Source of the DNA: Kibdelosporangium persicum
GTDB lineage: Bacteria > Actinomycetota > Actinomycetes > Mycobacteriales > Pseudonocardiaceae
DNA length: 64,000 nt
Assembly (NCBI RefSeq): GCF_013280595.1
Contig: NZ_JAAATY010000015.1
Span: 62,001-126,000, forward strand
Direction of reading: 5' to 3'
Shown here: piece by piece, positions 47,475 to 64,000 of the stretch
How positions within the stretch are numbered: the first letter of the stretch is position 1
Layout: every line of letters begins with the position of its first letter
Notes under the pieces: model-generated
Told to the model about the DNA's origin: nothing
The model's database searches: none
What the model saw: the letters and a program-made list of their open reading frames with translations, nothing else
Translations under genes and position numbers: made by a program

Positions 47475-47738
47475 GTGCCAGTTCGGCCGGAATCATGGGT
47501 GCGGGCCGCGGTGTTCGCCGACGGCCGGATGGAGCTGTCCGGTGACGGCACGATCTTCCACTGTGGACCCGTCGGGACCGCAATGTGGGTCGCCCTGTGT
47601 CAGCACGACTGGCAGATCGACGCGGCCGCCGACCTGCTCGCGGGCCTGTGGCGGCTGGACGTGGAGAACATGCGGACCGATCTTGTCATCTGGGTGGATG
47701 AGTTGTGGGACGCGGGTGTGCTCAGACATCACTCGTGA
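47475..47738 (+). CDS. Orphan PqqD-like (RiPP recognition element) protein
   Basis: An 87-residue protein with the PqqD winged-helix layout: short beta-strands (AVFADGRMELSGDGTIFHCGPVGTAMWVAL), a helix DAAADLLAGLWRLDVENMRTDLVIWVDELWDAGVLRHH. PqqD domains bind leader peptides for radical-SAM or other RiPP enzymes. No radical SAM, YcaO, or cyclase gene is in the window, so it is orphan or acts on a distant partner. GTG 47475 likely leaderless (TCTAAT 7 bp upstream). Confidence 0.65.
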   Translation: MPVRPESWVRAAVFADGRMELSGDGTIFHCGPVGTAMWVALCQHDWQIDAAADLLAGLWRLDVENMRTDLVIWVDELWDAGVLRHHS

Positions 47739-47879: not shown

Positions 47880-49340
47880 ATGGCGTTTCTCAGCGACGAG
47901 ACCTGGCGTGGACGAGTCTTCACCGGTTCGTGGGTGACGCCGGGCGGCGGTGATGCCGCGGTGGTCGAACCGGCCACGGGCCACGAACTCGGCCGGATCG
48001 GAATCGCCACACCACACGACGTCGCGCAGGCCGCGGCCGTCGCGGCGGAGGCACAACGTTCCTGGGCCGCAACGCCTTTCCAGCAACGAGCGGCCGTGTT
48101 GCGCAAGGCGGCCGGGCTGTGGAAAGCGCACGCCGCCGAGATCGGCTACTGGCTGACCCGCGAGTCCGGCAGCACCGGGGGCAAGGTCGGGTTCGAACTG
48201 CATGTGGCCGAACAGGAATGCCTGGAGGCCGCGACGCTTCCCGGTCGCCCCAGCGGATCGGTGCTGCCGAGCGAGGCGCCGCGGCTGAGCATGGCCAAGC
48301 GGGTTCCTGCTGGCGTGGTCGGCGTGATCGCGCCGTTCAACGCACCGCTGATCCTGTCGATCCGTTCGGTGGCACCGGCTTTGGCGCTCGGCAACGCGGT
48401 GATCCTCAAGCCGGACCCGCGCACCGCGGTGTGCGGCGGAGTGACTCTGGCGCGTGTCTTCGAGGACGCCGGTCTGCCGCCCGGCGTGCTGCACGTGCTT
48501 CCCGGCGGCCCGGACACGGGCGAGGCCCTTGTCACCGACCCGAACGTCCGCGTCATCTCGTTCACGGGTTCCACCGCGGCGGGCAGGAAGGTCGGCGAGG
48601 CCGCGGGCCGTCATCTCAAGCGGGCGCACCTCGAACTGGGCGGCAACTCCGCGCTGATCGTCACCGAGGACGCCGATCTGCGGCAGGCGGTCGGCGCCGC
48701 GGCGTGGGGGTCGTTCTTCCACCAGGGCCAGATCTGCATGACCACCGGGCGGCACCTGGTGCACGAGTCGATCTTCGACGAGTACGTCCGGCTGCTCGCC
48801 GAGAAGGCCGACAGCCTGACCGTCGGCGACCCCGCGACGAGTGAGGTCGCGCTCGGTCCGGTGATCGACGCCGGGCAGCGCGACAAGATCCACGCGCTGG
48901 TCACGGAGTCGGTGGACTCGGGCGCGATCCTGGTGTCCGGCGGGACCTGTACGGACCTGTTCTACCGTCCCACCGTTCTCAGCGACGCGACGGCGAGCTG
49001 CCGGGCGTATCGCGAGGAGATCTTCGGCCCGGTCGCGGTGGTCACGCCGTTCGCCTCCGAGGACGACGCGGTGAAGCTCGCGGCCGACAGCGAATACGGC
49101 TTGTCGCTCGGAATCCTGACCGGCGACGCGATGCGTGGGCTGGCGTTGGCCGAACGGATTCCGACGGGCATCGTGCATGTCAACGACCAGACGGTGAACG
49201 ATGAAGCACATGTGCCTTTCGGCGGTGTCCGTGAGTCCGGCACCGGGTCGCGGTTCGGTGGTGCCGAGGCCAACATCGAGGCGTTCACCGAGACCCGCTG
49301 GGTGACCGTGCGCGGCGACATTCCCAGTTTCCCGTTGTAG
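47880..49340 (+). CDS. Aldehyde dehydrogenase, NAD(P)-dependent (benzaldehyde/vanillin type)
   Basis: A 486-residue ALDH. Catalytic Cys286 is in GQICMTTGR, general base Glu252 in LELGGNSALIV, and the cofactor loop is FTGSTAAGRKVGEAAG; the C-terminal VNDQTVNDEAHVPFGGVRESG is typical of aromatic aldehyde dehydrogenases. ATG 47880 lies just after GACGGGAGCAGACGGCG. It is a single gene, ending in a strong terminator. Confidence 0.92.
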   Translation: MAFLSDETWRGRVFTGSWVTPGGGDAAVVEPATGHELGRIGIATPHDVAQAAAVAAEAQRSWAATPFQQRAAVLRKAAGLWKAHAAEIGYWLTRESGSTGGKVGFELHVAEQECLEAATLPGRPSGSVLPSEAPRLSMAKRVPAGVVGVIAPFNAPLILSIRSVAPALALGNAVILKPDPRTAVCGGVTLARVFEDAGLPPGVLHVLPGGPDTGEALVTDPNVRVISFTGSTAAGRKVGEAAGRHLKRAHLELGGNSALIVTEDADLRQAVGAAAWGSFFHQGQICMTTGRHLVHESIFDEYVRLLAEKADSLTVGDPATSEVALGPVIDAGQRDKIHALVTESVDSGAILVSGGTCTDLFYRPTVLSDATASCRAYREEIFGPVAVVTPFASEDDAVKLAADSEYGLSLGILTGDAMRGLALAERIPTGIVHVNDQTVNDEAHVPFGGVRESGTGSRFGGAEANIEAFTETRWVTVRGDIPSFPL

Positions 49341-49628: not shown

Positions 49629-49743
49629 CCCGCTGAAACGGTTGTAAACGGTCCGGAAACGCCCCGCCGGGGTGGCGCTCCGGTTGTTCACCACTGGTTT
49701 CCTTTCACATCCCTTGCCCTGTAGGTGTGGAGAAGGAATCACC

Positions 49744-52700
49744 TTGAGCGCATTTTCCTGTCGTGACCTGGTCATCGGTGTGAGCCCGCTCGGTGTGCCC
49801 AACGCCGCGCTCGTCGTCGCCGTCGAGCGAGCGGGTGGCCTGGGCGTGCTCGACCTCGGCCGCGATCGTGCGCGGGCGTTGGCCGAGCTGGCTGCCGTGC
49901 GGCGCAGGCTGGGCGGGCCGTTCGGCGCCCGGCTGGCGTCCGACTGTCCACTGAGGCCGGACGAACTGCCGGATGATATCGACGTAATCCTTACGCCGCA
50001 GCTCCTTCCCCGTAACGGCCGAAGACTGCTCGTCGAAGTGACGTCGGTCGACGAAGCCCGCGCCGCGGTACGGCATGGTGCGGACGGGCTGGTCGCCCGC
50101 GGTTGCGAGTCGGGCGTACGCGTCGGCGAACCGACCACCTTCGTGCTCCTGCAGCGGCTGCTCGCCGAGTTCGGTGTCCCTGTCTGGGCGGCGGGCGGAA
50201 TCGGTCCGAACACCGCCGCGGCGGCCGTCGCCGGCGGCGCGCGCGGTGTCGTTCTGGACAGCCAGCTCGCGCTCGTCACCGAAGTCCGTGATTGTCTCGA
50301 TGTCGAGGTCGTGGCCGCGATTGAGGCGATGGACGGCGCGGACACCACTATTGTCGACGGCCGCAGAGTGCTGACCCTTCCCGGCGCCGGTTATCCCATC
50401 CCGATCGGTCAAGACGGCGCTCTGGCGAACGGATTGCGCCAATTGGGCGGAACGGCGGGTGGCGTCGTGCAAGCAATTCACAAAACTGTGAAGCGCAATC
50501 TGGAATCGGCCTTCCGGAATCCCGCGATCCGCCAGGGCGGGCGTTTCTGTGAGCGCGCCGGCGGGCCGCGCTACCCGCTCGCGCAAGGCCCGATGACGCG
50601 CGTGAGCGACCAGCCGGCCTTCGCCGAAGCGGTCGCCGCGGCAGGAGGGCTGCCCTTCCTCGCCCTTGCCCTGATGAACGGCGAGCAGACCAGGCAGCTG
50701 TTGGCCCGGACGGCCGCACTTCTCAGCGGCCGTCCGTGGGGTGTCGGGATTCTCGGCTTCGCCGAGCCTGAGCTCAGGCAGGCCCAGCTGGCGGAGGTGC
50801 TGGCGGTCAGACCGCCGTACGCGATCGTCGCGGGCGGCAACCCGGCGCAGGCGCGCACGCTGGAGGACGCGGGTATCGAGGCGTTCCTGCACGTGCCGTC
50901 ACCCGCTCTGCTGCGCAACTTCCTCGACGACGGCGCGCGCAAGTTCGTCTTCGAAGGCTGGGAATGCGGCGGCCACACCGGCCCGCGCTCCAGCTTCACC
51001 CTCTGGGAACAGCAGATCTCCGTGCTGTCCGGCAGGGCCTCGCTGGCGGGCGTCAGCGTGCTGTTCGCGGGCGGCATCCACGACGAACGCTCGGCCGCGA
51101 TGGTCTCGGCGATGGCCGCGCCCCTGGTCGACAAGGGTGCGGCTGTCGGCGTCCTGATGGGCACGGCCTACCTGTTCACCCGAGAGGCCGTCGAGCACGG
51201 CGCGATCACGCCGGTGTTCCAGCAGGTCGCGCTGGAGTGCGCACGGACCGCGCTGCTGGAGACCTCGCCGGGGCACAGTGTCCGGTGCGCCCAGTCGTCC
51301 TTTGTGGACATGTTCGAGGCGGCGAAGGCCGAGCTGGCCGGCGCGCCCCGGCAGGACGCCTGGCAGCAGCTGGAACAGCTCAACCTCGGCAGGCTGCGGA
51401 TCGCCAGCCGCGCGGTCAAGCGGGACGGGCCGGATCTCGTCGCGGTCGGCGAGGACGAGCAACGCCGGACCGGGATGTTCATGATCGGCCAGGTGGCGAC
51501 CCTGCGGTCCGAGCTGACCGATCTCGCCACCCTGCACGAGCAGGTCACGAGGACCGAGTTCCTCCAGGCCCGGTACGCCGAACTGGCCGAAGAGCCCGAG
51601 CCGCCGGCGGCGGAGCCGCTCGACATCGCGATCGTCGGGATGGCCGCGATGCTGCCCGGCGCCGGTGACGTGGCCGAGTACTGGACCAACATCGTCGCGG
51701 GGGTCGACGCGATCACCGAAGTTCCGGCCGACCGGTGGGACACCGGGCTGTACCAGGACGCCACGCCGTCGCGGTGGGGCGGGTTCCTCGACCCGGTGCC
51801 GTTCGACGCGCTCGCGTACGGCATCCCGCCCGCGTCGCTGACGTCGATCGAGCCCGCGCAACTGCTTGCTCTGGAAGCGGCCGCCCGGGCACTGACCGAC
51901 GCCGGTTACCGGACCAGGGAGTTCGACCGGGACCGCACTTCGGTGATCTTCGGAGCCGAAGCCGGTGCGGACCTTGCCAACGCGTACACCGTCCGGTCCG
52001 CGCTGCCCGCGTTGTACGGCAGCACACCGGAAGGCCTTGACGACTACCTGCCCAAGCTGACCGAGGACTCGTTTCCCGGCGTGCTGGGCAACGTGATCGC
52101 GGGCCGGATCGCCAACCGGCTCGACCTCGGCGGCGCCAACTACACGGTCGACGCGGCCTGCGCCTCCAGCCTGGCCGCGCTCGACGTGGCGTGCAAGGAG
52201 CTCAAGGCGGGGACCAGCGACATGGTGCTGTGCGGTGCGGTGGACCTGCACAACAGCGCGCACGACTACCTGATGTTCGCCTCGGTGCAGGCCCTGTCGC
52301 CCAGCGGCCGGTGCGCCACCTTCGACTCGGCGGCCGACGGGATCGCCCTGGGCGAAGGCGTGGCGTGTGTCGTGCTCAAGCGCTTGGCCGACGCCGAACG
52401 CGATGGCGACCGGATCTACGCCGTGGTCAAGGGAATCGGGGCGTCGAGCGACGGCAAGTCCTTGGGGCTGACGGCCCCGCGTGCCGACGGTCAACGTCGT
52501 GCGCTGCAACGGGCCTACGGTTCGGCGGGCGTGTCGGCGAAGGAAGTCGGGCTCGTCGAAGCACACGGCACGGGCACGGTCGTCGGTGACCGGACCGAAC
52601 TGGCCGCCTTGACGGAGATGTTCACCGAGGCCGGGGCGGACCCGGGCAGTTGCACGATCGGATCGGTCAAATCCCAGATCGGGCACACCAAGTGCACAGC

Positions 52701-55700
52701 GGGCCTGGCCGGGCTGATCAAGGCCGCCACCGCGGTGCACACCGGCATCCGGCCGGGCACCCTGCACGTCACCAAGCCCAATCCGTACTGGAAACCGGAG
52801 ACCAGCCCGTTCGCCTTCGGCCACCGCACCTGGTCGGCCCCTGCCGAACGGCGCACGGCCGGGATCAGCGCCTTCGGCTTCGGCGGAACCAACTTCCACA
52901 CCGTGATCACCGGTTACGGCGGCGCCGACGAGCCACGGCACGGCCTGCGGGACTGGCCCGCGGAACTGTTCGTGTTCCGTGGCGCGGACCAGGCCGCCGT
53001 CCAACGCGTAGCCGACCGGGTCGCCCGGCTGGTGCGGGCGAACGACGCCGCCGGGCGGCCGTTCTCCCTGCGGGACATGGCGATGACTGCGGCCGGCATG
53101 TCGCCCGGACAGCCGGTCCAGGCCACGGCCGTGGTGGAGGATCTCGAACACCTGCCGGACGTCCTGGCCGATGTCCGGGCCTGGCGGGCATCCCCGGCAG
53201 TCCGGCTGCGCGACAGCGGCGACGTTCCGAAGATCGCTTTCCTGTACCCGGGCCAGGGCAGCCAGCGGCCCGGCATGGTGCTCGACCTGTTCACCGCGTT
53301 CCCCCGGCTCCAGGAGACCTTGCGGCTCGCGGGCGGACGCTACGAGGACGTCATGTTCCCGCCCGCGGCCACGACGCCCGAAGAGGCTGACCGGCACCGT
53401 GCCGCGATCACCGACACGACCGTGGCCCAGCCGACACTGGGCATCGCGGGCCTCGCCGTGACGGAACTGCTGGCGTGGCACGGCATCCGGCCGGACATGG
53501 CGGGCGGGCACAGCTACGGCGAGCTCGTCGCGCTGACCGCGGCCGGTGTCTTCGAGCCCGGGCAACTGCTGGAACTCAGCGAGGCACGCGCCAAGGCGAT
53601 CGTGCGGGCCGTCGGCGACGATCCCGGCGCGATGGCCGCGGTCACCGGTTCGATCGACCAGATCCGCGGGATCGTCCCGGACGACGTCGTGGTGGCCAAC
53701 CACAATTCGCCGACCCAGGCCGTGATCTCCGGTGGCACGCGGGCGATCGCCGAGGCCGTGCGGATACTCGCCGAGGCAGGGCTTTCGGCGCGGACGATCC
53801 CGGTCGCCGCGGCGTTCCACAGTCCGCTCGTCGCGCGGGCCGAACAGCACTTCGCGGAAGTTCTCGCCTCGCAGGAGGTCCGCGAGGCGACCATCCCCGT
53901 GTGGTCCAATGTGGATGCCCTGCCGTACGGGGACGTCCGGGCGACCCTGGCTCGCCAGGTCGCCGCCGAGGTCAGGTTCGTCGACCAGATCGAGGCCATG
54001 TACGCGGCCGGTGCCCGGGTGTTCGTCGAGGCCGGACCGGGCGGCGTGCTCACCGGCCTGGTCCGCAAGATCCTCGGCGACCGGCCGTACACCGCCGTGG
54101 CGTGCGACGCGCCGGGCCACCACGGCATCAGGACCTTCCTGAACACGCTGGCCGAACTGGCCGTGGCCGGGGTGCCGGTGGACGTGGCCCCGCTTTTCAC
54201 CGGACGGGCCCACCGGGTCCGGCCGGAGGACATCCCGGCTCGCCCCCAGTGGTTCGTTGATGGAGGACTCGTGCGTGACGCCCACGGCAAGGCCCTGACC
54301 GGTGGCCTGCGCCCGGCCACCGAGGCGCCCCGGCTGAGTGCGCCCGCCGGACTGAACCGGGACGCGATCGTCAAGGAATTCCTCGACGGCATGCGGGAAG
54401 CAGTGGCCGCGCAACGTGACGTGCTGCTCGGCTATCTCGGAACCACCCCGGCCACCCCGGCGCCCGCCGCGCGGACGGCCGTCGTCCCGGAAGCGGTGAC
54501 ACCCGCGCCGGTGCGGGAACCCGAGAAGACCGTGGACGTCGCCGCCGTGGACGTCGGCACGGTGGTGCTGGAGACGATCAGCGCCCGCACCGGCTATCCG
54601 CCCGAGATGCTCGAACCAGGGCTGGATCTCGAAGCGGACCTGTCCATCGACTCGATCAAGCGGACCGAGATCATCGGGGAACTCGCGAGCGCGCTCGGCG
54701 TGACCGGCGACGGGTCGGCCGTCGAGGCACTGACCGGGATCAAGACCATCGAGGGCATCGTCAGCTGGTTCGGGCAACGGGAGACGGCCGCCGCGCCCGT
54801 TCCACGGCAGCACGAGGTGGTCGTCGAAGGCGGCCGTCCGGTCCGCCAGGTGCCCACGGTGGTCACTCTGGACGCCTGCCCAGAGCCGACGTCGCTGACA
54901 GGGCGACGAATCCTGATCGTGGACGACGGCGGTGACGTGGGGCTGGAGCTGACCGACCGGATCGAGCGGCTCGGCGGCACGGCCCGCACCGTCGACCAGA
55001 TATCCACTGTGGACGCCGACTACGTCCTCTACCTGAGCGCGCTCCGGTCGACCGGTGAGCCCACGTTGCCCGAGGCCTACGAGGAGCTCCGGACGTGCCT
55101 GACGGCCGGGATCAAGGGTCTCATCGTGGCGACCGCGGGCGGCGGGACCTTCGGGCACGGCGCCGCCGAGGACGACCACGAACCGCTCGACCTGGGCATG
55201 CACGGTCTGATCAGGACGGCCGCCCTGGAGTACCCGGACCTGCGCGTCCGCGCGGTCGACGTGAGCCCGAAGGAAAGCCACCGGCTGATCGCGGCGTCAC
55301 TGCTGGCCGAACTGACCACAGTGGACGGACCGGCGGTGGTCGGGCACGCGTCCGGCGAGCGTTACGCCATCGAACTGCGCACCGCCGAGCTGGACGGGGA
55401 CGGACAGCCGGACCTGGATCAGGACAGCGTCGTGGTGCTGACCGGCGGTGCCAGGGGCATCACGGCCCTCGCGGCGATCGAGCTGGCCGAGCGGACCGGG
55501 TGCCGGATCGAGCTGATCGGCCGGACCGCGCCGCCGAAAGGCCCGGAGGACCCGCGTACCGCCACGGCCACCAGCGAAGCGGAACTCCGCCGGGCCCTCA
55601 TCGAGACCGGCCTGAAAGACCGCGACGAGATCGCCGTGCGGGCGCGCAGGATCCTGGCCGAAAGAGAAATCCGGCAGACCATGGACGCGCTGCGGTCGTC

Positions 55701-56229
55701 CGCGGCGTCCGTCCGCTACCACGCGTGTGACGTCCAGGACGTCGACGCAGTCCACGCGGTGCTCAACGACATCGTCGCGAGATTCGGCCGGATCGACGGT
55801 GTGGTGCACGGCGCGGGCGTGCTGGACGACAAGCTGATGGCCGACAAGACCCCCGAGGGTTTCGCGCGGGTCTACCACACCAAGGTCGGCGGCGCGCGGG
55901 CGTTGGCGAAAGCGCTGCGGCACAACCCGAAGTTCGTGGTGATGTTCGGCAGCATCAGCGGTGTGCTCGGCAACCGCGGGCAGGCGGACTACGCCGCGGC
56001 CAACGACACGCTCGACCGGATCGCCCGGTTCTGGGCCGGCCAGACCGGCGCTCGCGTGGTGAGCGTCGACTGGGGGCCGTGGGCGGGCAGCGGGATGGCC
56101 GCGGACCTGGCCGAGGAGTACGCCCGCCGTGGCATCCGGTTGATCGATCCGCGTGCGGGCGTCGAGGCCTTGCTGCGGGAGATCGCCGTCGGTGACGCGG
56201 TCCAGGTGGTCTACCAATGCGGCCGGTAG
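49744..56229 (+). CDS. PUFA-synthase-like iterative type I PKS (NPD-NPD-KS-AT-ACP-KR)
   Basis: A 2161-residue megaenzyme. TTG 49744 follows GGAGAAGGA. Residues 1-250 and 265-545 are two nitropropane-dioxygenase-like FMN barrels; the second has the active His411 in ECGGHTG, the first has Glu122 there. A KS (626-1060) has C806, H941 and H981; an AT (about 1155-1480) has GHSYGE with Ser1257; one ACP carries LSIDSIKR with Ser1637; a KR (1890-2130) has TGGARG, Ser in GSISG and Tyr2083. NPD barrels act as enoyl reductases in PUFA synthases (PfaD), so this chain can be partly reduced. It overlaps the next gene by 13 bp. Product unknown. Confidence 0.9.
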   Translation: MSAFSCRDLVIGVSPLGVPNAALVVAVERAGGLGVLDLGRDRARALAELAAVRRRLGGPFGARLASDCPLRPDELPDDIDVILTPQLLPRNGRRLLVEVTSVDEARAAVRHGADGLVARGCESGVRVGEPTTFVLLQRLLAEFGVPVWAAGGIGPNTAAAAVAGGARGVVLDSQLALVTEVRDCLDVEVVAAIEAMDGADTTIVDGRRVLTLPGAGYPIPIGQDGALANGLRQLGGTAGGVVQAIHKTVKRNLESAFRNPAIRQGGRFCERAGGPRYPLAQGPMTRVSDQPAFAEAVAAAGGLPFLALALMNGEQTRQLLARTAALLSGRPWGVGILGFAEPELRQAQLAEVLAVRPPYAIVAGGNPAQARTLEDAGIEAFLHVPSPALLRNFLDDGARKFVFEGWECGGHTGPRSSFTLWEQQISVLSGRASLAGVSVLFAGGIHDERSAAMVSAMAAPLVDKGAAVGVLMGTAYLFTREAVEHGAITPVFQQVALECARTALLETSPGHSVRCAQSSFVDMFEAAKAELAGAPRQDAWQQLEQLNLGRLRIASRAVKRDGPDLVAVGEDEQRRTGMFMIGQVATLRSELTDLATLHEQVTRTEFLQARYAELAEEPEPPAAEPLDIAIVGMAAMLPGAGDVAEYWTNIVAGVDAITEVPADRWDTGLYQDATPSRWGGFLDPVPFDALAYGIPPASLTSIEPAQLLALEAAARALTDAGYRTREFDRDRTSVIFGAEAGADLANAYTVRSALPALYGSTPEGLDDYLPKLTEDSFPGVLGNVIAGRIANRLDLGGANYTVDAACASSLAALDVACKELKAGTSDMVLCGAVDLHNSAHDYLMFASVQALSPSGRCATFDSAADGIALGEGVACVVLKRLADAERDGDRIYAVVKGIGASSDGKSLGLTAPRADGQRRALQRAYGSAGVSAKEVGLVEAHGTGTVVGDRTELAALTEMFTEAGADPGSCTIGSVKSQIGHTKCTAGLAGLIKAATAVHTGIRPGTLHVTKPNPYWKPETSPFAFGHRTWSAPAERRTAGISAFGFGGTNFHTVITGYGGADEPRHGLRDWPAELFVFRGADQAAVQRVADRVARLVRANDAAGRPFSLRDMAMTAAGMSPGQPVQATAVVEDLEHLPDVLADVRAWRASPAVRLRDSGDVPKIAFLYPGQGSQRPGMVLDLFTAFPRLQETLRLAGGRYEDVMFPPAATTPEEADRHRAAITDTTVAQPTLGIAGLAVTELLAWHGIRPDMAGGHSYGELVALTAAGVFEPGQLLELSEARAKAIVRAVGDDPGAMAAVTGSIDQIRGIVPDDVVVANHNSPTQAVISGGTRAIAEAVRILAEAGLSARTIPVAAAFHSPLVARAEQHFAEVLASQEVREATIPVWSNVDALPYGDVRATLARQVAAEVRFVDQIEAMYAAGARVFVEAGPGGVLTGLVRKILGDRPYTAVACDAPGHHGIRTFLNTLAELAVAGVPVDVAPLFTGRAHRVRPEDIPARPQWFVDGGLVRDAHGKALTGGLRPATEAPRLSAPAGLNRDAIVKEFLDGMREAVAAQRDVLLGYLGTTPATPAPAARTAVVPEAVTPAPVREPEKTVDVAAVDVGTVVLETISARTGYPPEMLEPGLDLEADLSIDSIKRTEIIGELASALGVTGDGSAVEALTGIKTIEGIVSWFGQRETAAAPVPRQHEVVVEGGRPVRQVPTVVTLDACPEPTSLTGRRILIVDDGGDVGLELTDRIERLGGTARTVDQISTVDADYVLYLSALRSTGEPTLPEAYEELRTCLTAGIKGLIVATAGGGTFGHGAAEDDHEPLDLGMHGLIRTAALEYPDLRVRAVDVSPKESHRLIAASLLAELTTVDGPAVVGHASGERYAIELRTAELDGDGQPDLDQDSVVVLTGGARGITALAAIELAERTGCRIELIGRTAPPKGPEDPRTATATSEAELRRALIETGLKDRDEIAVRARRILAEREIRQTMDALRSSAASVRYHACDVQDVDAVHAVLNDIVARFGRIDGVVHGAGVLDDKLMADKTPEGFARVYHTKVGGARALAKALRHNPKFVVMFGSISGVLGNRGQADYAAANDTLDRIARFWAGQTGARVVSVDWGPWAGSGMAADLAEEYARRGIRLIDPRAGVEALLREIAVGDAVQVVYQCGR
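50477..50492. promoter_or_regulatory. Inverted-repeat element TTCACA-N4-TGTGAA, intragenic copy
   Basis: A perfect 6-bp inverted repeat around AAAC, sharing 14 bases with 49485-49498. It lies between the two NPD-like barrels of the PKS (codons for IHKTVK), 733 bp after the start codon. An intragenic operator or chance match constrained by coding. Confidence 0.3.
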
Positions 56230-59200
56230 ACGTCGCGATCGTCGGCATGGGGGCGTTGTTCCCCGGTGCCGGTGACGTGCCGGCGTTCTGGCACAACATC
56301 GTCGGCTCGGTCGACGCGATCGGCACGATCCCGGCACAGCGCTGGGACCCGGACGTCTACTACGACCCGGCAGGCACTCCGGCGAGCGACCGGTTCTACT
56401 GCCGTCGCGGTGGTTTCCTGGACGAGCAGGCGACGTTCGACCCGGCCGGGTTCGGCATCATGCCGTCCACAGTGGACGCCGCCGAGCCTGACCAACTGCT
56501 TGCTCTGGGCGTGGCGGCGGAGGCGATCGCCGACGCCGGGGGCGAGCAGGCCCTGCCGGACCGGGCGAAGGTCGGCGTCGTGGTCGGCCGCGGCGGGTAC
56601 CTCACCCCCGGCTGCGCCCGGCTTGACCAGCGTGTCCAGATCGGGCAGCTGATCTCGGCCGTCAAGGACCTGATGCCCGGCGTCGACACCGCCGCACTGC
56701 GCGATGCCCTGCGCGATGCCCTGCGCGAACGCCTCGGGCCCGACCAGCCGGAGGCGTCCATCGGCCTGGTGCCGAACCTGGCCGCGTCCCGGATCGCCAA
56801 CCGGTTCGACCTGCTCGGCCCGGCGTACACAGTGGACGCCGCGTGCGCGTCGGGCCTCGTCGCGGTCGAGCACGCGGTCCGGGAGCTCGTCTCCGGCCGG
56901 TGCGACGCGATGCTGGCCGGTGCCGTGCACGTCTCGCATCACCCGACCTTGTGGAGCGTGTTCACGCAACTGCGGGCGCTGAGCCCGACGGAGCAGATCC
57001 GGCCCTTCGACCGTGACGCCGACGGCACCTTGCTGTCCGAAGGCGTCGGCATGGTTCTGCTCAAACGAGCCCAGGACGCCGTGGCCGACGGCGATCGGAT
57101 CTACGCCGTGATCCGCGGTGCCGGCACGGCGAGCGACGGCCGAGCCACCAGCATGATGACGCCGAACCCGGACGGCCAGCTGCTGGCGGTGCGACGGGCC
57201 TGGCAGGAAGCCGGACTGCGGCCCGGCGACGGCCTCGGCCTGATCGAGGCGCACGGCACCGCGACCCCGGCCGGTGACGCCGCCGAACTGGCGACGGTGA
57301 TCAAGGCCTTCGGCGCGGCCGGTGCCCAGGTCGGGATCGGCACGGTCAAGTCGATGATCGGCCACGCGATGCCCGCGGCCGGGATGGCCGGGCTGATCAA
57401 GGCCGCGCTCGCGGTGCACCACGCGACCCTGCCGCCCACGCTGCACATCGACGACCCGCATCCCGCCTTGGCCGGCACCAGGTTCGCACCCGTGCTGCGG
57501 CCGGGCACATGGGAAGGCGTTCGCCGCGCCGGCGTGAACGCGTTCGGCTTCGGCGGCATCAACGCCCACGTCGTCCTCGAACAGGCGGACGATTCCGCCG
57601 CCGTGCAGGCGAACCTGTTGGCGCCCGTGTTGTTGCTGGCGGCGGACTCACCGGAGGAACTCGAACGGGACCTGCTGGCCGACGACGCCGATCTGCTCAG
57701 CCGTGCGGCCCGGCGGACGCGGCCGGAGGACAAGCCGTGCCGGTTGGCGATCTGGCAGCCGGACGCGCGCAGGCTCAAGCTGGCCCGGCAAGTCGTCGCC
57801 CGGGGCAAGAAGTGGACCGGCAGGCACGACATCTGGTTCTCACCAACGCCGTTGCTGACCCGGCGCGACCAGATCGCGTTCCTGTTCCCGGGATTCGAAC
57901 AACGCGGCACAGCCGAGCTCGCGGGCGAGCAGTCCGTGGTCGAGCACGCGCTGGCGTTGCTCGGCGCGGGCCGGCGCCAGGCGCACAAGCTGCGGGCGGC
58001 CGGGATCGTGCCCAGTGTGATGGCCGGGCACAGCATGGGGGAGTGGACCGCGATGATCGTCGCGGGCATCTACCCGACGATCGACGAGTTCGTGGAATCC
58101 CTGCGTCCCGGCATGGTCGCGGTCGCCGACGTCGTGTACGCCGCGCTCGGCTGTTCGGCCGGGAAAGCGCAGGAAGTGCTGGACGAACTGGCCGTCGACG
58201 TGGTCGTCAGCCACGACAACTGCCCGCACCAGTCGGTCATCTGCGGGCCCGCGAACGACCTGGCCAAGGCGATGGAAAGGCTGACCGGCAACGGTGTCCT
58301 CGCGCAGGTCATGCCGTTTCGCACCGGCTTCCACACGCCTGCGCTCGCCCCGCACCTGGAGGCCGCGCGGGCGACAGTCCACGCGCTCGCCGTGCATTCG
58401 CCGTCGATCCCGGTCTGGTCCGCGACCTCGTTGGCACCCATGCCGGACGACCCCGCCGCGATCCGTGAACTGGTGCTGAGGCACCTCGTCGAACCGGTCC
58501 GGTTCCGGCCTTTGCTGCGACGCCTGCACGATCACGGCATCCGTGCCTTCGTCCAGGTCGGCCCGGGCAGTCTGCCGGGGTTCGTCGAGGACACCCTCAG
58601 CGGCGAGGAGTTCGTGGCCGTCGCCGGTGATTCCGAACACCGGGCCGCGGCCGCGCTGTGGGCGTTCGGGCACGACCGCGGCTCGAAAGGACGGCGGCTT
58701 TCCCTTGGCCTGACGCCGTTGCGGCTCGACCCGATCACCGTGGACCAACCGGCACTTGTGGACACCACCACGCCCGTGGGAGCCGCGCTCAGCGCGGTCC
58801 TGGCCGAGACCACGGCGGTCGCACGGGAAGTGGCGAACGCCCTCACAGCCCCCCAACCCACCGAGGTCGAACTGACCCGGGTGTTCTCGTTGCGGACCAT
58901 GCCGCACCTGATCGACCACTCGGTGTTCCCCCAGCCCGAAGGTTGGCACGATCCCTCCGACGGGTTCCCGATCGTGCCGATCACCGGCCTGGTCGAGGTG
59001 ATCAAGGACGCCACCCGTGCCGTGGTCCCCAGCGGTGCGCTGACCGCCGTCGAGTCGGTCAAGGCGATGCGGTGGCTGGAAGTCGAACCCGCCCAGGAAG
59101 TCCGGATCACGGCCGGACCGGACGGTGACCGGGTCCGCGTCCGTGTCGGTGACTTCGCCGAAGGCCTCGTCCGGTTCGATGCCGCGTACCCGAAGCCCGA

Positions 59201-60158
59201 GGACCGCACGTACCCGCCGTTGCGGGCACCTCGGCCGGCACCGGTGAAAGCCAGTGAGCTTTACGACGCGGGCTGGATGTTCCACGGCCCCCGGTTCGCC
59301 GGGGTCAGCGAGATCACCACCTTGGCGGAGAACGGGATCACCGGTGTGCTGACCGTGCTGCCCGCGCCGGGCGCGTTGCTCGACTGCGCCGGTCAGCTGA
59401 TCGGCCACTGGATGCAGGTCAGCAGGAACGTCGACCAGACGGTGCTGCCCACGGGGATCGGCGCCGTCCGGTACTACGGCCCGGACCCCGAGCCGGGAAC
59501 ACGGATCGCCTGCCACGCCTGGATTCGGGAGGTCACCGCCGAGTTCATGCGCGCGGATGCCGAACTGCGCACCGAGGACGGCGGGCTGTGGTGCCGGATC
59601 GACGGCTGGACCACCCGCCGGTTCACCACCGACGACCGGATCTGGCAGGTCAAGCTCCGCCCCGGGCACAACACACTGGCCGAGCCGCAGGACGGTGGCT
59701 GGGTGCTGGTGACCGAGAAGTGGGCCGACGACAGCGCCGCTCGCGAGCTCATGGCGCGCCGGTACCTCACAGCCGACGAGCGAGCCGGCTACAACCTGCT
59801 GGACCTGCGCACCAGGCGCCAGTGGCTGCTGCGCCGGATCGCGGCCAAGGACGCGGTCCGGCGCTGGCTGTGGAACCGGGGCGCCGGTGCGATCTTCCCG
59901 GCCGAGCTGACCGTGGCCGACAACGGCACAGAGGTCCAGGTCCGTGGCGCGTTCGCCACGCCCAGGGTGTCGGTCGCGCACTGCGCCGATCCCGGCAAGC
60001 CGTCCGCCCCGGGATGCGCCGTGGCGGTCGCCGGCGAGGCCGACGTCGTGATCGGCATCAGACCCGGTGCCACGGCCCCGCCCGGAGCCACCGTCGTCAC
60101 GGACCAGGGAACGTCCTATGTGGTCGAAGTGAAGCGGACAGGAGTGCGGCATGTCTGA
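56217..60158 (+). CDS. KS-AT-DH protein with C-terminal PPTase-like segment
   Basis: A 1313-residue protein that shares the KS/AT type of the first PKS. KS (1-440): C210, H346, H383. AT (about 545-830): AGHSMGE with Ser606. A hot-dog dehydratase-like region (about 880-1130) begins MPHLIDHSVFPQPEGW with His at 897/901. Residues about 1160-1313 (RRQWLLRRIAAKDAVRRWLW, then FPAEL, VSVAHC) resemble the substrate- and metal-binding parts of Sfp-type phosphopantetheinyl transferases found fused in related synthases. No ACP is in the protein, so it must use the PKS ACP or the free one. ATG 56217 and the next start both overlap neighbours. Confidence 0.87.
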   Translation: MRPVDVAIVGMGALFPGAGDVPAFWHNIVGSVDAIGTIPAQRWDPDVYYDPAGTPASDRFYCRRGGFLDEQATFDPAGFGIMPSTVDAAEPDQLLALGVAAEAIADAGGEQALPDRAKVGVVVGRGGYLTPGCARLDQRVQIGQLISAVKDLMPGVDTAALRDALRDALRERLGPDQPEASIGLVPNLAASRIANRFDLLGPAYTVDAACASGLVAVEHAVRELVSGRCDAMLAGAVHVSHHPTLWSVFTQLRALSPTEQIRPFDRDADGTLLSEGVGMVLLKRAQDAVADGDRIYAVIRGAGTASDGRATSMMTPNPDGQLLAVRRAWQEAGLRPGDGLGLIEAHGTATPAGDAAELATVIKAFGAAGAQVGIGTVKSMIGHAMPAAGMAGLIKAALAVHHATLPPTLHIDDPHPALAGTRFAPVLRPGTWEGVRRAGVNAFGFGGINAHVVLEQADDSAAVQANLLAPVLLLAADSPEELERDLLADDADLLSRAARRTRPEDKPCRLAIWQPDARRLKLARQVVARGKKWTGRHDIWFSPTPLLTRRDQIAFLFPGFEQRGTAELAGEQSVVEHALALLGAGRRQAHKLRAAGIVPSVMAGHSMGEWTAMIVAGIYPTIDEFVESLRPGMVAVADVVYAALGCSAGKAQEVLDELAVDVVVSHDNCPHQSVICGPANDLAKAMERLTGNGVLAQVMPFRTGFHTPALAPHLEAARATVHALAVHSPSIPVWSATSLAPMPDDPAAIRELVLRHLVEPVRFRPLLRRLHDHGIRAFVQVGPGSLPGFVEDTLSGEEFVAVAGDSEHRAAAALWAFGHDRGSKGRRLSLGLTPLRLDPITVDQPALVDTTTPVGAALSAVLAETTAVAREVANALTAPQPTEVELTRVFSLRTMPHLIDHSVFPQPEGWHDPSDGFPIVPITGLVEVIKDATRAVVPSGALTAVESVKAMRWLEVEPAQEVRITAGPDGDRVRVRVGDFAEGLVRFDAAYPKPEDRTYPPLRAPRPAPVKASELYDAGWMFHGPRFAGVSEITTLAENGITGVLTVLPAPGALLDCAGQLIGHWMQVSRNVDQTVLPTGIGAVRYYGPDPEPGTRIACHAWIREVTAEFMRADAELRTEDGGLWCRIDGWTTRRFTTDDRIWQVKLRPGHNTLAEPQDGGWVLVTEKWADDSAARELMARRYLTADERAGYNLLDLRTRRQWLLRRIAAKDAVRRWLWNRGAGAIFPAELTVADNGTEVQVRGAFATPRVSVAHCADPGKPSAPGCAVAVAGEADVVIGIRPGATAPPGATVVTDQGTSYVVEVKRTGVRHV

Positions 60159-60435
60159 GTCAAGTGTGCTCGACGAGGTGGTCAGGCTGATCGCCGAGGT
60201 GGTCGGCGAGGATGTGCTGCTGGGCATGGAGATCACGCCGGAGACCACGTTCAGCGACGATCTCGGCCTGGAGAGCATCGAGTTCGTGGCGCTGGCCGAC
60301 CGGCTGCGCGAGCGGTACGGCGCTCAGGTCGACCTCGTCGCGTTCCTGGGCGACATGGACATCGACGAGATCATGGCCATGACCGTCGGCCAGCTCGTCG
60401 ACCACATCCAGTCCCAGCCCGCGGCCCATGGCTGA
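60151..60435 (+). CDS. Free acyl carrier protein
   Basis: A 94-residue ACP with LGLESIEFVAL giving the phosphopantetheine serine (D/E-S-I/L motif, residue 47 region), preceded by acidic helix 1 and followed by the usual VDLVAFLGDMDIDEIMAMTVGQL. It starts 8 bp inside the KS-AT-DH gene, so it is made with it. It may receive the finished chain, supply a starter unit, or serve the second KS. Confidence 0.92.
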   Translation: MSESSVLDEVVRLIAEVVGEDVLLGMEITPETTFSDDLGLESIEFVALADRLRERYGAQVDLVAFLGDMDIDEIMAMTVGQLVDHIQSQPAAHG

Positions 60436-61213
60436 CGTCACCGCCCGCGGCCTGCGGTTCCACGTCCAGCAGCTGGGTTCGGAGAACACCGGGCCCACGG
60501 TGGTGTTCGTGCACGGCCTGGTGATGGACAACCTGTCCAGCTTCTACTACACCCTCGCGGCACCGTTGGCGCGCAACGGAATCCGGACGATCCTGTTCGA
60601 CCTGCGTGGCCACGGCTTGTCCGCCCGCCCGGAGACCGGCTACACACCGCAGGACAGCGCACTGGACCTGCTGGCGATCCTCGACGAACTGGGTGTCGAG
60701 GAACCGGTCTACTTGCTGGGCAACAGCTACGGCGGCGTGGTCGCGATGCACGCGGCACTCAAGGCCGCGCACCGGGTGGCCGGTGTCGTGCTGGTGGAGG
60801 CCGCGTGCGCGGGCCAGTCCGGTGAGCTCTGGGTCGAGGACATCGTCAACACGTTGAGCGTGGCCGCGCTCGGCCTGGAGTTCGACCGGACCGGTGAGCA
60901 ACTGCTGAAGCTCGGCCAGCGCAAGGTGGCCAAGCTCGCCGGCAACGCGGACGCCCTGCTGAACCGGACCTCGTTGATCGACGACCTCGTCTCGGGCGCG
61001 CTGCTGTCCGAATCGGACCTCCGGCAGGTCGCCTGCCCGGTGCTGGGCGTGTTCGGCGCCGAATCGGAACTCGCCGGGGCGGCGAAGGACCTGGACCGGC
61101 TGGTGCCCGGCTGCGAGACACACGTGATCCCCGGGCTCGGGCACACGGTGCTGCGCGAGGCGACCGGGGAGCTGATCAAACGAGTGCTCGCCTGGCTGGA
61201 CGCGGTCCGATGA
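60428..61213 (+). CDS. Alpha/beta hydrolase (thioesterase-like) of the PKS locus
   Basis: A 261-residue serine hydrolase. HGLVMDN at the oxyanion hole, nucleophile Ser100 in GNSYGG, and His239 in GLGHTVL; the acid is probably Glu212 or Glu214 in FGAESEL rather than the usual Asp. No signal peptide. Its position suggests chain release or editing from the ACP. ATG 60428 overlaps the ACP gene by 8 bp. Confidence 0.9.
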   Translation: MADVTARGLRFHVQQLGSENTGPTVVFVHGLVMDNLSSFYYTLAAPLARNGIRTILFDLRGHGLSARPETGYTPQDSALDLLAILDELGVEEPVYLLGNSYGGVVAMHAALKAAHRVAGVVLVEAACAGQSGELWVEDIVNTLSVAALGLEFDRTGEQLLKLGQRKVAKLAGNADALLNRTSLIDDLVSGALLSESDLRQVACPVLGVFGAESELAGAAKDLDRLVPGCETHVIPGLGHTVLREATGELIKRVLAWLDAVR

Positions 61214-62337
61214 GGTTCCTGTTCGTGGTGCCGCCGCTGACCGGCCACATCAACCCGACCGTCGGCGTGGGCGAGGAGTTGCGCAGGCGGGGGCACGACG
61301 TGGCCTGGGTCGGGCATCCGGCCACGCTCGAAGCCCTGCTGCCGGAGCAAGCCACGGTCTTCCCGGCGTTGGACGACCGGCTTGAGGCGGACATCCGGCG
61401 GGCCCGGCTGCGCTGGCTCGAACTCAAAGGCTTCGCGGTGCTGAAGTTCCTGTGGGAGGAGTTCCTGATCCCGCTGGCACACGCGATGATCCCGGGCGTC
61501 CAGGACGCGGTGAAGGAGTACCAGCCGGACGTGCTGATCGCCGACCAGCAAGCGCTTGCCGGGCCGGTGGTCGCCCGTGAGCTGGGCATCCCGTGGGTGA
61601 CGAGCGCGAGCACCCCGGCCGAGCTGATCCGTCCACTGAGGACCATACCGAAGGTCGAACAGTGGGTGCTCGGCCAGCTGCGTTCCCTGTCCGATGTGGA
61701 TCCCAGGTTCTCCGAGATCCTGGTGCTGGTGTTCAGTTCGCCCGCCCTGGTCGGAGGTTGCTTCCCGCCGAACCACGTCTTCACCGGCCCGGTTCTGGAA
61801 CACCGGCCGGAACGCGGTGACTTCCCGTGGGACTGGCTGGCCGAGGGGACGCGGAAAGTCCTGGTGTCCCTGGGAACGTTGAACGGACCGGCCGGGCGGC
61901 GGTTCTTCGGCGAAGTCGCCCATGCGGTCACGGACATGCCGGACGTGCAGGTGGTGATGGTGGCGCCACCACTCGACGCACCGCCGAACGTCCTTGTGGT
62001 GGACCGGGTCCCGCAGTTGGCCCTGATGAAGCACATGGACGCGGTGGTCTCGCACGGCGGCCACAACACCGTGTGCGAGACGCTGGGGCACGGGCTTCCG
62101 TTGGTCGTCGCCCCGATCCGCGACGACCAGCCGATCATCGCCGAGCAGGTCGTCTCGGCAGGCGCCGGGGTGCGCCTGAAGTACCAGCGAGTGCGGGCAC
62201 CGGAGATCCGCACCGCGTTGCGGAACGTGTTGCAGGACCCGGTGTACGCGGTCAACGCGCGCCGGATCCAGGAGTCCTTCCGGCTCGGCGGCGGTGCCCG
62301 CACCGCGGCTGATCATCTCGAGGCGGTGGTGGCATGA
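61210..62337 (+). CDS. UGT-type glycosyltransferase (GT1)
   Basis: A 375-residue GT-B enzyme of the macrolide/UGT type: MRFLFVVPPLTGHINPTVGVGEELRRRGHDV at the N-terminus contains the catalytic His in GHINP; the C-terminal donor site is VVSHGGHNTVCETLGHGLPLVVAPIRDDQP (HGGxxT..E). It would attach a nucleotide-activated sugar to the polyketide, fatty acyl or a derived hydroxyl. ATGA overlaps on both sides. Confidence 0.92.
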   Translation: MRFLFVVPPLTGHINPTVGVGEELRRRGHDVAWVGHPATLEALLPEQATVFPALDDRLEADIRRARLRWLELKGFAVLKFLWEEFLIPLAHAMIPGVQDAVKEYQPDVLIADQQALAGPVVARELGIPWVTSASTPAELIRPLRTIPKVEQWVLGQLRSLSDVDPRFSEILVLVFSSPALVGGCFPPNHVFTGPVLEHRPERGDFPWDWLAEGTRKVLVSLGTLNGPAGRRFFGEVAHAVTDMPDVQVVMVAPPLDAPPNVLVVDRVPQLALMKHMDAVVSHGGHNTVCETLGHGLPLVVAPIRDDQPIIAEQVVSAGAGVRLKYQRVRAPEIRTALRNVLQDPVYAVNARRIQESFRLGGGARTAADHLEAVVA

Positions 62338-64000
62338 TCGCGTGGATCCTGTTCGGCCTGGTAGTGGCCTGCCTGGTGGTGGACACCCTGCGCCTGCGTG
62401 GCAGGGCGAGCGGGTTGCGGGTGCTGCCCGAGGCAGCCGGGGACTCCGAGGACTTCCAGTCCTTCCCGGCGCGGTTGCCCGAAGACGTGCGGCAGTCCGC
62501 CGTCGAGTTCGCCAGGGCCGAGGATCTCGGGCTGGTCGACCTGATCCCGGCGAACCTGCCGACCATCGCCGCGCTCGACCTGCTCAACCAGGTCGAGCCC
62601 AAGACCTACCGCGGTGACCGCTGGGTGCGGGGGATCAGCGCGGGCGAGGCGATCGTCTTCAGCAGCAAGGCCGTGGACAAGCTGGGCATCAGGCAACCGG
62701 CCGATCCCACGGAGTTCGTCACCGTCGCCCGGCGGGTCAAGGACCGGGAAGGCGTGTACGTCGACCTGGCCGTCGCGCCGACCCTGCCGTCAGGGCCCTA
62801 TGACCTGTCGAAGCGTGCCGCGCGGCTGCGCAAACTCGGCAAGCGACCGGCGTTGTCGACCTCCGCGTCGGTGATCGGATACCTCGCGGTGCTGGGTGTC
62901 ACCTTGTGGACATGGCCATGGGGTTTGATCGCGGCCGGACTCTACAGCCTCCAGCCGGTGCTGGCGTTCGCCGGAACACCCCTGCGGCCCAAGGATCTCT
63001 GGCTGACGTCCGTGCTGCGTGCGGTCTACCAGCCGTACCTCTGGGTCCGGACACTGGGCGGACGGTGGCGCACTGCGGCGGAAATCCAGCAGGAGCAGGA
63101 GATGCTGGCGTCGGTGCCGTCCTATCAGGAGGAGATCGACCGCGGCGTCGACCGGTTCTTCGAGCCGCGCCGGGAGAGTTGCCCGACATGCGGCTCGGCG
63201 GACCTGGAGCAGCTGGTCCGTGCGGTGGACCTGGTGCAGCGCAAGCCCGGTGAGTTCCGGATGGACCGGTGTGTCTCCTGTGGACACGTCTTCCAGAACC
63301 CGAGGCTGTCCACGGCCGGACTCGACTTCTACTACCGTGACTTCTACGACGGCCACGGCGCCGGCGCGGCCGAAGCCGTGTTCGCGGGCAAACCGGACCC
63401 GTACTACGACCGGGCCAGGATGGTCCAGCCGTTCACCACACCACGGAACTGGCTGGACGTCGGCTCCGGGCACGCGCACTTCTGCCTCGGTGCCAAGGAG
63501 ATCCTGCCGGACACCCGCTTCGACGGCCTGGACCAGGGAGCGTCCATTGAGGACGCCGTCACGCTGGGCCGCGTCACGGCGGCCTACCGAGGGAACTTCA
63601 AGGACTTCGCCGACCAGCTGCGCGGCCGCTACGACGTGATCAGCATGCACCACTACCTCGAACACGTCCGTGACCCGTGGGACGAGCTGGACATCGCCGC
63701 GGACACGTTGCCCGACGGCGGCTACCTGCTGATCGAGGTGCCCGACCCGGAATGGCGGCTCGGCAGGCTGTTCGGCAAGTACTGGATGCCGTGGTTCCAG
63801 CCGCAGCACCAGCACATGCTGCCGATCGCCAACCTGAAGCAGGCGCTGGCCGAGCGCGGCCTGCGGCCGGTCGCCGAAGAACGCGGCAAAGCCCATCTCT
63901 GCAACGACTTCGTGCTCTCCAGCTACCTGTTCCTGGCCAGTATCGCGCCTCGCTCACCGGCTCCGTGGCGCCCGGCCGAGCCCAGGCTCAAGGCGCTGCG
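62334..64000 (+). CDS. Membrane-anchored zinc-ribbon SAM methyltransferase, 3' end cut
   Basis: The frame is open from ATG 62334 (overlapping the GT stop) through the window edge, 555 codons so far. An N-terminal helix (2-20), a soluble part of no recognised family and a hydrophobic hairpin (about 185-230) precede a zinc ribbon, C283PTC286 and C313VSC316, and a class I methyltransferase domain with DVGSG (375-379) and LIEVPDPE. Zinc-ribbon methyltransferases of this kind act on sugars or small metabolites. It may modify the glycan or chain at the membrane. Incomplete. Confidence 0.85.
   Translation, partial: MIAWILFGLVVACLVVDTLRLRGRASGLRVLPEAAGDSEDFQSFPARLPEDVRQSAVEFARAEDLGLVDLIPANLPTIAALDLLNQVEPKTYRGDRWVRGISAGEAIVFSSKAVDKLGIRQPADPTEFVTVARRVKDREGVYVDLAVAPTLPSGPYDLSKRAARLRKLGKRPALSTSASVIGYLAVLGVTLWTWPWGLIAAGLYSLQPVLAFAGTPLRPKDLWLTSVLRAVYQPYLWVRTLGGRWRTAAEIQQEQEMLASVPSYQEEIDRGVDRFFEPRRESCPTCGSADLEQLVRAVDLVQRKPGEFRMDRCVSCGHVFQNPRLSTAGLDFYYRDFYDGHGAGAAEAVFAGKPDPYYDRARMVQPFTTPRNWLDVGSGHAHFCLGAKEILPDTRFDGLDQGASIEDAVTLGRVTAAYRGNFKDFADQLRGRYDVISMHHYLEHVRDPWDELDIAADTLPDGGYLLIEVPDPEWRLGRLFGKYWMPWFQPQHQHMLPIANLKQALAERGLRPVAEERGKAHLCNDFVLSSYLFLASIAPRSPAPWRPAEPRLKAL

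Follow-up and report, generated by a model that had tools for sequence, protein, structure and literature searches.

The stretch of DNA analysed here (the window) comprises 64,000 nucleotides of the Kibdelosporangium persicum genome (10.35 Mb) and corresponds to positions 62001-126000 of a 220,948-base contig, C15. Towards its end lie seven overlapping + strand genes, A to G, which form an operon starting at 49672 and encode two large proteins resembling polyunsaturated fatty acid (PUFA) synthases, followed by smaller proteins. All the genes that an earlier note on this DNA had named were recovered from the open reading frames and Pfam matches, on the + strand, overlapping, and in the order given there. 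The genes are listed below; the domains are ketosynthase (KS), acyltransferase (AT), acyl carrier protein (ACP), ketoreductase (KR), dehydratase (DH), phosphopantetheinyl transferase (PPTase) and the reductase-type NPD1 and NPD2.

Gene A, 49672-56229, + strand: iterative synthase NPD1-NPD2-KS-AT-ACP-KR, 2185 residues counted from the first GTG
Gene B, 56217-60158, + strand: KS-AT-DH with a decayed PPTase tail, 1313 residues
Gene C, 60151-60435, + strand: free ACP, 94 residues (Pfam PP-binding)
Gene D, 60428-61213, + strand: alpha/beta-hydrolase (Pfam) in which the Ser and His motifs are present, putatively for chain release or acyl transfer
Gene E, 61210-62337, + strand: MGT-type glycosyltransferase (Pfam UDPGT/EryCIII-like)
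Gene F, 62334-64139, + strand, final 139 bases past the window end: ChsH2-type zinc ribbon and Methyltransf_23, a class I S-adenosylmethionine-dependent methyltransferase (Pfam)
Gene G, window-equivalent 64136-65011, outside the window, + strand: GHMP/galactokinase-like protein

Successive genes from A to F overlap by 13, 8, 8, 4 and 4 bases, in that order, and F and G overlap by 4 bases. The 2161-residue protein described earlier is present, and its length fits an alternative start at 49744, but the first GTG, at 49672, gives 2185 residues. The best NCBIfam model for A was TIGR02813 (PfaA), with a score of 852 bits (E 7e-256) that lies below the curated cut-off of 1010 bits; because of this match, and because the gene order recurs in other genera, the locus is beyond chance. 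When B was compared with its own genome, the next match after B itself was the KS of A (47%), followed by KSs at 31-43% or fragments, and the NPD1-NPD2 profile gave a single match in the genome, for which reasons we take the operon to be the sole copy.

Domains and active sites of the synthase proteins

Pfam reported NMO (in two stretches), KS, AT, PP-binding and KR domains in A, which are arranged as follows.

NPD1, 49753-50391, + strand: FabK-like TIM barrel with Arg in place of the catalytic His (NMO, E 4.8e-15; FabK model)
NPD2, 50569-51540, + strand: FabK-like flavin mononucleotide (FMN) enoyl reductase with ECGGH (Pfam and FabK model)
KS of A, 51622-53037, + strand: Cys, His and His present
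AT of A, 53239-54174, + strand: GHSYG and FH motif, malonyl-type
ACP of A, single, 54565-54723, + strand: DLSIDSIK
KR of A, 55429-56085, + strand: catalytic Ser and Tyr present

Both NPDs match FabK, an FMN enoyl-ACP reductase. Residues were counted over distinct sequences whose domain match covers at least 60% of the query. The His of the ECGGH motif in NPD2 was found in 94/94 sequences, the patterns used to find the named loci themselves including ECGGH; at the corresponding position NPD1 carries Arg in 81/94 sequences and His in 1/94. Two enoyl reductase domains of thraustochytrids form a heterodimer, and the His of the same motif is the proposed catalytic residue (PMC13311796). By analogy with that heterodimer, NPD1 may be a structural partner of NPD2. 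The remaining active sites of A are well conserved, with the KS Cys in 89/91 sequences, the KR Tyr in 83/83 and the ACP Ser in 84/84. The active Ser of the AT was present in 87/90 sequences of A and 79/79 of B, and the Phe of the FH pair in 88/90 and 78/79, respectively. An FH pair is typical of malonyl-specific ATs. The earlier note had regarded the single ACP as a departure from the standard arrangement; A does carry just one, but this is the rule in the family, in which A has one ACP at 57 of 74 loci, two at 16 and three at one, and a second ACP is encoded as a free protein by C.

The domains of B are given below.

KS of B, 56229-57650, + strand: complete catalytic triad
AT of B, 57834-58706, + strand: GHSMG and FH motif
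DH of B, 58839-59630, + strand: PKS-type (polyketide synthase), catalytic His and Asp present (PF14765 and PF21089)
PPTase remnant, 59709-60155, + strand: Sfp-type, N-terminal half present, acidic motif and RFWxAKEA half gone (alignment with intact relatives)

The KS of B retains Cys, His and His in all 76 sequences that have it, which rules out a chain-length factor in B. The catalytic His and Asp of the DH were likewise found in 76/76 sequences. Pfam reported only the DH models PF14765 and PF21089 on B, and no FabA-type domain was found in the operon; in the genome, matches to the FabA-type family PF07977 occur on contig C48 only. That the DH is PKS-type, with FabA-type domains on another contig only, argues against polyunsaturated products.

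The PPTase-like tail proposed for B is indeed PPTase-derived, but it is decayed. The last 179 residues of B gave no Pfam match. Alignment showed that many relatives carry an entire Sfp-type PPTase here, GIDIE and RFWxAKEA motifs included; the window and its closest kin have lost the second half and the acidic residues. A functional PPTase tail in the window is therefore ruled out. Of the 76 distinct tails (window included), sorted by text pattern, 26 counted as intact, 8 as partial and 37 as lost, and another 5 are truncated by contig ends, although some of those scored as lost, for example at loci L084, L112 and L115, may hold divergent motifs. On a tree of 51 B-type KSs, 25 with intact tails (including L057, partial by tail pattern) and 26 with lost ones, the PPTase changed state at least seven times by well-supported branches and ten times by parsimony; this tree excludes 7 partial, 5 cut and 11 lost tails (L049, L051, L055, seven Lentzea-like loci and L124), as well as L058 and L094, in which B has no KS. 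A KS is absent from B at 3/74 loci altogether, and B gave no KS match at 5 of 15 further Pseudonocardiaceae loci. Since only a PPTase remnant is left in B, the ACPs must be primed in trans, and two proteins with PF01648 are encoded elsewhere in the genome.

Phylogeny, distribution and known relatives

A tree of 63 KS rows was built. Among its host rows there are two pairs with the same sequence, and a further host region selected for the tree, L172, contributed no KS. The KSs of A form one clade (support 100/96), whose neighbours are L163, on a long branch, and then the KSs of the catalogued Type P synthases of Beijerinckia and Methylosinus (98/93); the next group out is made up of KSs encoded at plasmid loci, the majority of which have several ACPs (97/94). 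Placement is unsure for the long branches L163, L167_KS1, L168_KS2, L171, L173 and L174. Seventeen host rows labelled modular fall into a separate clade together with a Leptolyngbya KS (100/97). A modular PKS is ruled out by this separation, and a mycolic-acid PKS by the tree, which has no Pks13 row, together with lower scores against hidden Markov models. The phylogenetic check suggested in the earlier note thus places the KS of A in the part of the tree occupied by PUFA and secondary lipid synthases, and not among the host's modular KSs, a grouping that would have spoken against the reading in that note. The KSs of B make up a clade of their own (100/100) that joins the lipid-synthase KSs at 89/81, and the one Frankia KS in the tree, of the B type, lies within the family clade.

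Queries with individual parts of the operon indicated a wide but uneven distribution. The ACP query matched 8/8 genomes of the genus, the host included; the DH-plus-tail query from B matched 99/249 genomes of the family, in 18/46 genera; and the NPD1-NPD2 profile matched 54/394 genomes of the class, in 13/138 genera, at E up to 1e-60, and 8/296 genomes of the phylum at E up to 1e-100. Among named genomes, at least 588 loci were confirmed out of 591 pattern matches. The best 80 of the named loci include members of the actinobacterial genera Kibdelosporangium, Actinocrispum, Umezawaea, Lentzea, Actinomadura, Streptomyces, Kitasatospora, Kutzneria, Sciscionella and Frankia, and metagenome-assembled genomes (MAGs) labelled Planctomycetota, Acidobacteriaceae, Myxococcales and Deltaproteobacteria. 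One record, titled Nocardia sp. NRRL S-836 (L078), carries a locus resembling those of Lentzea and is perhaps misnamed.

The earlier note had also proposed looking for the same gene order in other actinomycetes, and a five-gene core of A, B, ACP, hydrolase and glycosyltransferase was present at 33 of 35 other Pseudonocardiaceae loci (18/20 and 15/15 in two sets), the exceptions being L060, which is cut by its contig, and L066, which gave no ACP or glycosyltransferase match. The named and unnamed loci partly come from the same genomes (e.g. L049 and L069), and genomes G029 and G204 contribute two loci each to the 35. Matches to the methyltransferase part of F were found at 10/20 and 4/15 of these loci and matches to G at 8/20 and 0/15, while all seven genes were matched at four loci of the same genus (L049-L052). 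A Streptomyces plasmid carries A, B, ACP, hydrolase, glycosyltransferase and methyltransferase as annotated genes. In Candidatus Frankia californiensis (L101), matches to NPD1-NPD2-KS-AT-ACP-KR and to KS-AT-DH were found, with no PPTase match within that stretch.

These features can be compared with the twenty types of secondary lipid synthases catalogued by Shulse and Allen in 2011 (PMC3098273). Type M there comprises synthases of Actinosynnema mirum, three Frankia, Renibacterium salmoninarum and Streptomyces avermitilis, whose products are uncharacterised (PMC3098273). A 2026 paper describes a fused pfaDA and a fused pfaBC with a PPTase in Aquimarina and Flavobacterium, and notes their close likeness to the uncharacterised R. 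salmoninarum synthase (PMC13291983). The window shares with Type M the enoyl reductase fused ahead of KS-AT-ACP-KR (a fused pfaD-pfaA), a fused pfaBC homologue with AT, DH and PPTase in that order, the last only as a remnant, and an actinobacterial membership that includes Frankia with an uncharacterised product; it differs in its decayed PPTase and in the added methyltransferase and GHMP protein. By the wording of two papers, we assign the locus to the catalogued Type M rather than to a new layout.

Type P comprises Azotobacter vinelandii and Beijerinckia indica and is associated with phenolic-lipid chains such as C22, e.g. behenic acid; the same source notes that B. indica itself is not known to make phenolic lipids (PMC3098273). 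Beijerinckia and Methylosinus have the same NPD1-NPD2-KS-AT-ACP-KR fusion and a DH-PPTase protein, in keeping with their sister KSs (98/93), but the second protein of Beijerinckia lacks KS-AT; B resembles the Type P DH-PPTase protein, extended at its front end by a KS-AT. At the position of the type III PKSs, Beijerinckia has two genes annotated as having a 3-oxoacyl-ACP synthase III C-terminal domain, instead of which the window has a glycosyltransferase, a hydrolase and a free ACP. The Azotobacter member, likened here by description and not by sequence, is reported to supply acyl chains of C22-C26 (or C23-C25) to type III PKSs (PMC3098273, PMC4824345), ArsA being the fatty acid synthase that feeds them (PMC4824345). 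No type III PKS (PF00195) was found on C15, the genome matches being on C42 and C3, and a phenolic lipid product is thereby disfavoured.

With the PfaA-D synthases the window has in common the KS-AT-ACP-KR order, a PfaA-like KS and ACP, a separate DH partner and an FMN enoyl reductase. Unlike them, however, it has one ACP in A in place of tandem ACPs, lacks both the KS-chain-length factor pair (B has a single KS with a full triad) and the FabA-like DH pair, and has its enoyl reductase fused to the KS protein. The heterocyst glycolipid (Hgl) synthases, which are Type F and carry the antiSMASH label hglE-KS, are likewise iterative secondary lipid synthases linked to glycosylation; they differ, in a comparison made by description only, in having KS-CLF-AT (CLF, chain-length factor) in HglC and in lacking DH/I (PMC3098273). 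A survey of Lentzea genomes counted 15 'hglE-KS' clusters (PMC9120177), which are likely the same loci as ours. The earlier note had held that the layout, with its NPDs fused at the N terminus, does not match the standard PfaA-D arrangement; that it is without any match is not supported, given that the NPD-NPD fusion is shared with the Type P synthases of Beijerinckia and Methylosinus, that fused pfaDA and pfaBC-PPTase are described in Aquimarina and Flavobacterium, and that the family is widespread. A unique layout is ruled out by Frankia L101, by the Type P proteins and by that description (PMC13291983).

Transport genes, accessory genes and flanking DNA

Genes for lipid transport accompany some of the related loci. 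An MsbA-like ABC (ATP-binding cassette) transporter gene follows the glycosyltransferase at L064, L065 and L068, as checked by Pfam at L068 only, and Mce-type genes follow the cluster at five of the 15 further Pseudonocardiaceae loci (L182, L185, L187, L188 and L191). At L191, Pfam identified two MlaE permeases; MCE-domain proteins were confirmed in the same way at L192 and L194, which lie on the contigs of L191 and L188, respectively; the Mce-type call at L182, L185 and L187 rests on sequence likeness. In the subtype whose B lacks a KS (L182, L184, L185, L188 and L191), an AMP-binding protein is encoded next, as judged by Pfam at L191 and by likeness elsewhere, and Mce-type genes come after it in four of the five (L182, L185, L188 and L191), the L184 stretch stopping before any. 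The position of transporter genes after the cluster supports the idea that, in the Mce- and MsbA-linked lineages, a lipid product would be handled by envelope transporters. On the window's contig no MCE-domain gene was found; those of the host lie on C1 and C30.

Residues 1-270 of F (window 62334-63140) matched no Pfam family and by eye have a membrane-bound look; this N-terminal part of 270 residues is kept in kin belonging to Kibdelosporangium, Umezawaea and Lentzea, with weaker conservation (31-34%) at L062, L177, L178 and L179. In the genome of L177 (G040:C1:3600600-3620599) and L193, the zinc-ribbon methyltransferase gene is doubled after the glycosyltransferase and is followed by a TetR regulator. 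The operon is closed by G, a short, divergent galactokinase-like GHMP protein (L009:2136-3011).

Upstream of the operon lie an aldehyde dehydrogenase gene (47880-49340) and, on the opposite strand, a GH25 hydrolase gene; downstream is an S-adenosyl methyltransferase gene of the Methyltransf_19 family. Farther from the operon, window 42797-44937 matches NADH-dehydrogenase 51K FMN and Fe-S domains directly ahead of a single-cluster ferredoxin gene, and a lone open reading frame of 87 residues at 47475-47738 has by eye the look of a PqqD-type peptide-binding protein and matched no Pfam family.

Proposed product and competing explanations

The operon probably encodes an iterative secondary lipid synthase of the PUFA-synthase-like Type M, which makes a long, unbranched, mostly reduced acyl glycoside, methylated in this lineage. 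The genes and their order, the motifs, the phylogeny and the PPTase decay are shown by the sequences; how long and how reduced the chain is, which sugar it bears, what D, F and G do, and what the product is are inferred. A and B would jointly build one long, unbranched, malonyl-derived chain on ACPs loaded in trans, the built-in PPTase of B being decayed. NPD2 would act as the FMN enoyl reductase, with NPD1 as a TIM-barrel partner that lacks the catalytic His; together with the KR and the PKS-type DH of B, NPD2 would fully reduce most units and leave one or more beta-hydroxyls. D would then release or transfer the chain, E would glycosylate it, probably with glucose, and F would methylate the product in the window lineage, probably on the sugar. 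A very long, mostly saturated chain with beta-hydroxyls is proposed because the enoyl reductase, KR and DH are apparently active, the ATs are malonyl-type and the Type P synthases are kin. Its most likely product is a very-long-chain hydroxyacyl glycoside whose chain is unbranched and mostly reduced and which in this lineage is O-methylated. The glycosylated and partly reduced acyl product suggested in the earlier note is the most economical reading, and its methylation is plausible.

Instead of being secreted, the product may be a structural component of the cell envelope that, in the manner of heterocyst glycolipids, is made in response to development or stress, and we regard this as a possible but less probable explanation. 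It is consistent with the presence of the ACP gene in every genome of the genus, with the characterised relatives Ars and Hgl, which make envelope lipids of cysts and heterocysts (PMC3098273, PMC4824345), and with the Mce-type lipid-transport genes that follow five of the 15 further loci, as confirmed by Pfam for two genomes. However, the Mce genes of the host lie on other contigs, and B has no KS at four of the five loci linked to Mce genes; moreover, the locus is patchily distributed in both family and class (the genome and genus counts given above), it occurs on a Streptomyces plasmid, and the MsbA-like transporters at three loci suggest export.

A secreted macrodiolide glycolipid of the cycloviracin/fattiviracin/glucolypsin class, in which D would dimerise glucosylated, hydroxylated very-long-chain acids through sugar esters, is in our view an unlikely product, less probable than an envelope lipid. 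According to a review, fattiviracins and cycloviracins are dimers of acyl-glucose with trihydroxy acids of about C22-C33 and 2-O-methylated outer sugars, cycloviracin has no C2-methyl branch, and the producers are Kibdelosporangium albatum (cycloviracin), Streptomyces and Nocardia (PMC4365757). K. albatum is now Allokutzneria albata. The product predicted here fits this class in chain length, hydroxylation and glucosylation and in the O-methylation of its sugar. The class is also matched by the partly reducing synthase of unbranched chains, the malonyl-type AT motifs, the glycosyltransferase, the methyltransferase and the hydrolase, and the producer groups overlap with the synthase family, which occurs in Kibdelosporangium, Streptomyces and other Pseudonocardiaceae. 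Against this, one glycosyltransferase gene would have to account for four or five glucosylations, the dimerising role of D is a guess, and the family extends to MAGs labelled Planctomycetota, Acidobacteriaceae and Deltaproteobacteria, groups that are not known as sources of macrodiolide glycolipids. No named producer species occurs among the best 80 named loci, and among the titles and abstracts listed in literature searches, which cover few subscription journals, none connected the macrodiolide glycolipids with a gene cluster or this type of locus with a product. Only as a tentative and rather doubtful extension might one propose that Type M synthases in Kibdelosporangium and its relatives constitute the missing macrodiolide glycolipid pathway, with programmed hydroxyls left in a C22-C33 chain, the hydrolase-fold enzyme dimerising the glucosylated acids, and the methyltransferase deciding between cycloviracin (methylated) and fattiviracin (unmethylated); if true, this would link the locus to orphan antiviral glycolipids.

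A polyunsaturated or polyene acyl chain, to which the PfaA-like KS and ACP might point, seems very unlikely. The operon lacks a FabA-like dehydratase/isomerase (PF07977 being on C48 only), on which ground we disfavour a PUFA product; there is no tandem ACP array, one ACP being usual in the family; and the Type P product is reported as a long-chain acid such as behenic acid (PMC3098273). Hardly credible is a decaying locus that makes no product at all. Although the catalytic half of the PPTase in B is gone, the KS, AT, ACP, KR, DH and NPD2 residues checked are intact in the window, A to G are all matched at L049-L052, and PPTase loss is recurrent in several lineages, with two other PPTases in the genome.

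Several observations nevertheless weigh against a Type M synthase of an acyl glycoside. The Type M identity is based on the wording of the papers; A scores 852 bits, short of the 1010 set as the curated threshold of the PfaA model; the tie of the B-KS clade to the lipid-synthase KSs is moderate (89/81); and the KS and KR matches of Frankia L101 are each split in two pieces. For D, E and F the putative functions follow from family membership alone, and the Ser motif of D is missing in 2/41 sequences. The Mce neighbours appear mostly in the subtype whose B, unlike that of the window, has no second KS, and the divergent galactokinase-like G is without an explained role.

Two evolutionary features can be traced across the synthase family: the built-in PPTase has been lost repeatedly, and the first reductase lacks its catalytic His. 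This type of synthase is widespread and catalogued but has no product assigned to it, and the identity of that product would probably label many 'hglE-KS' clusters.

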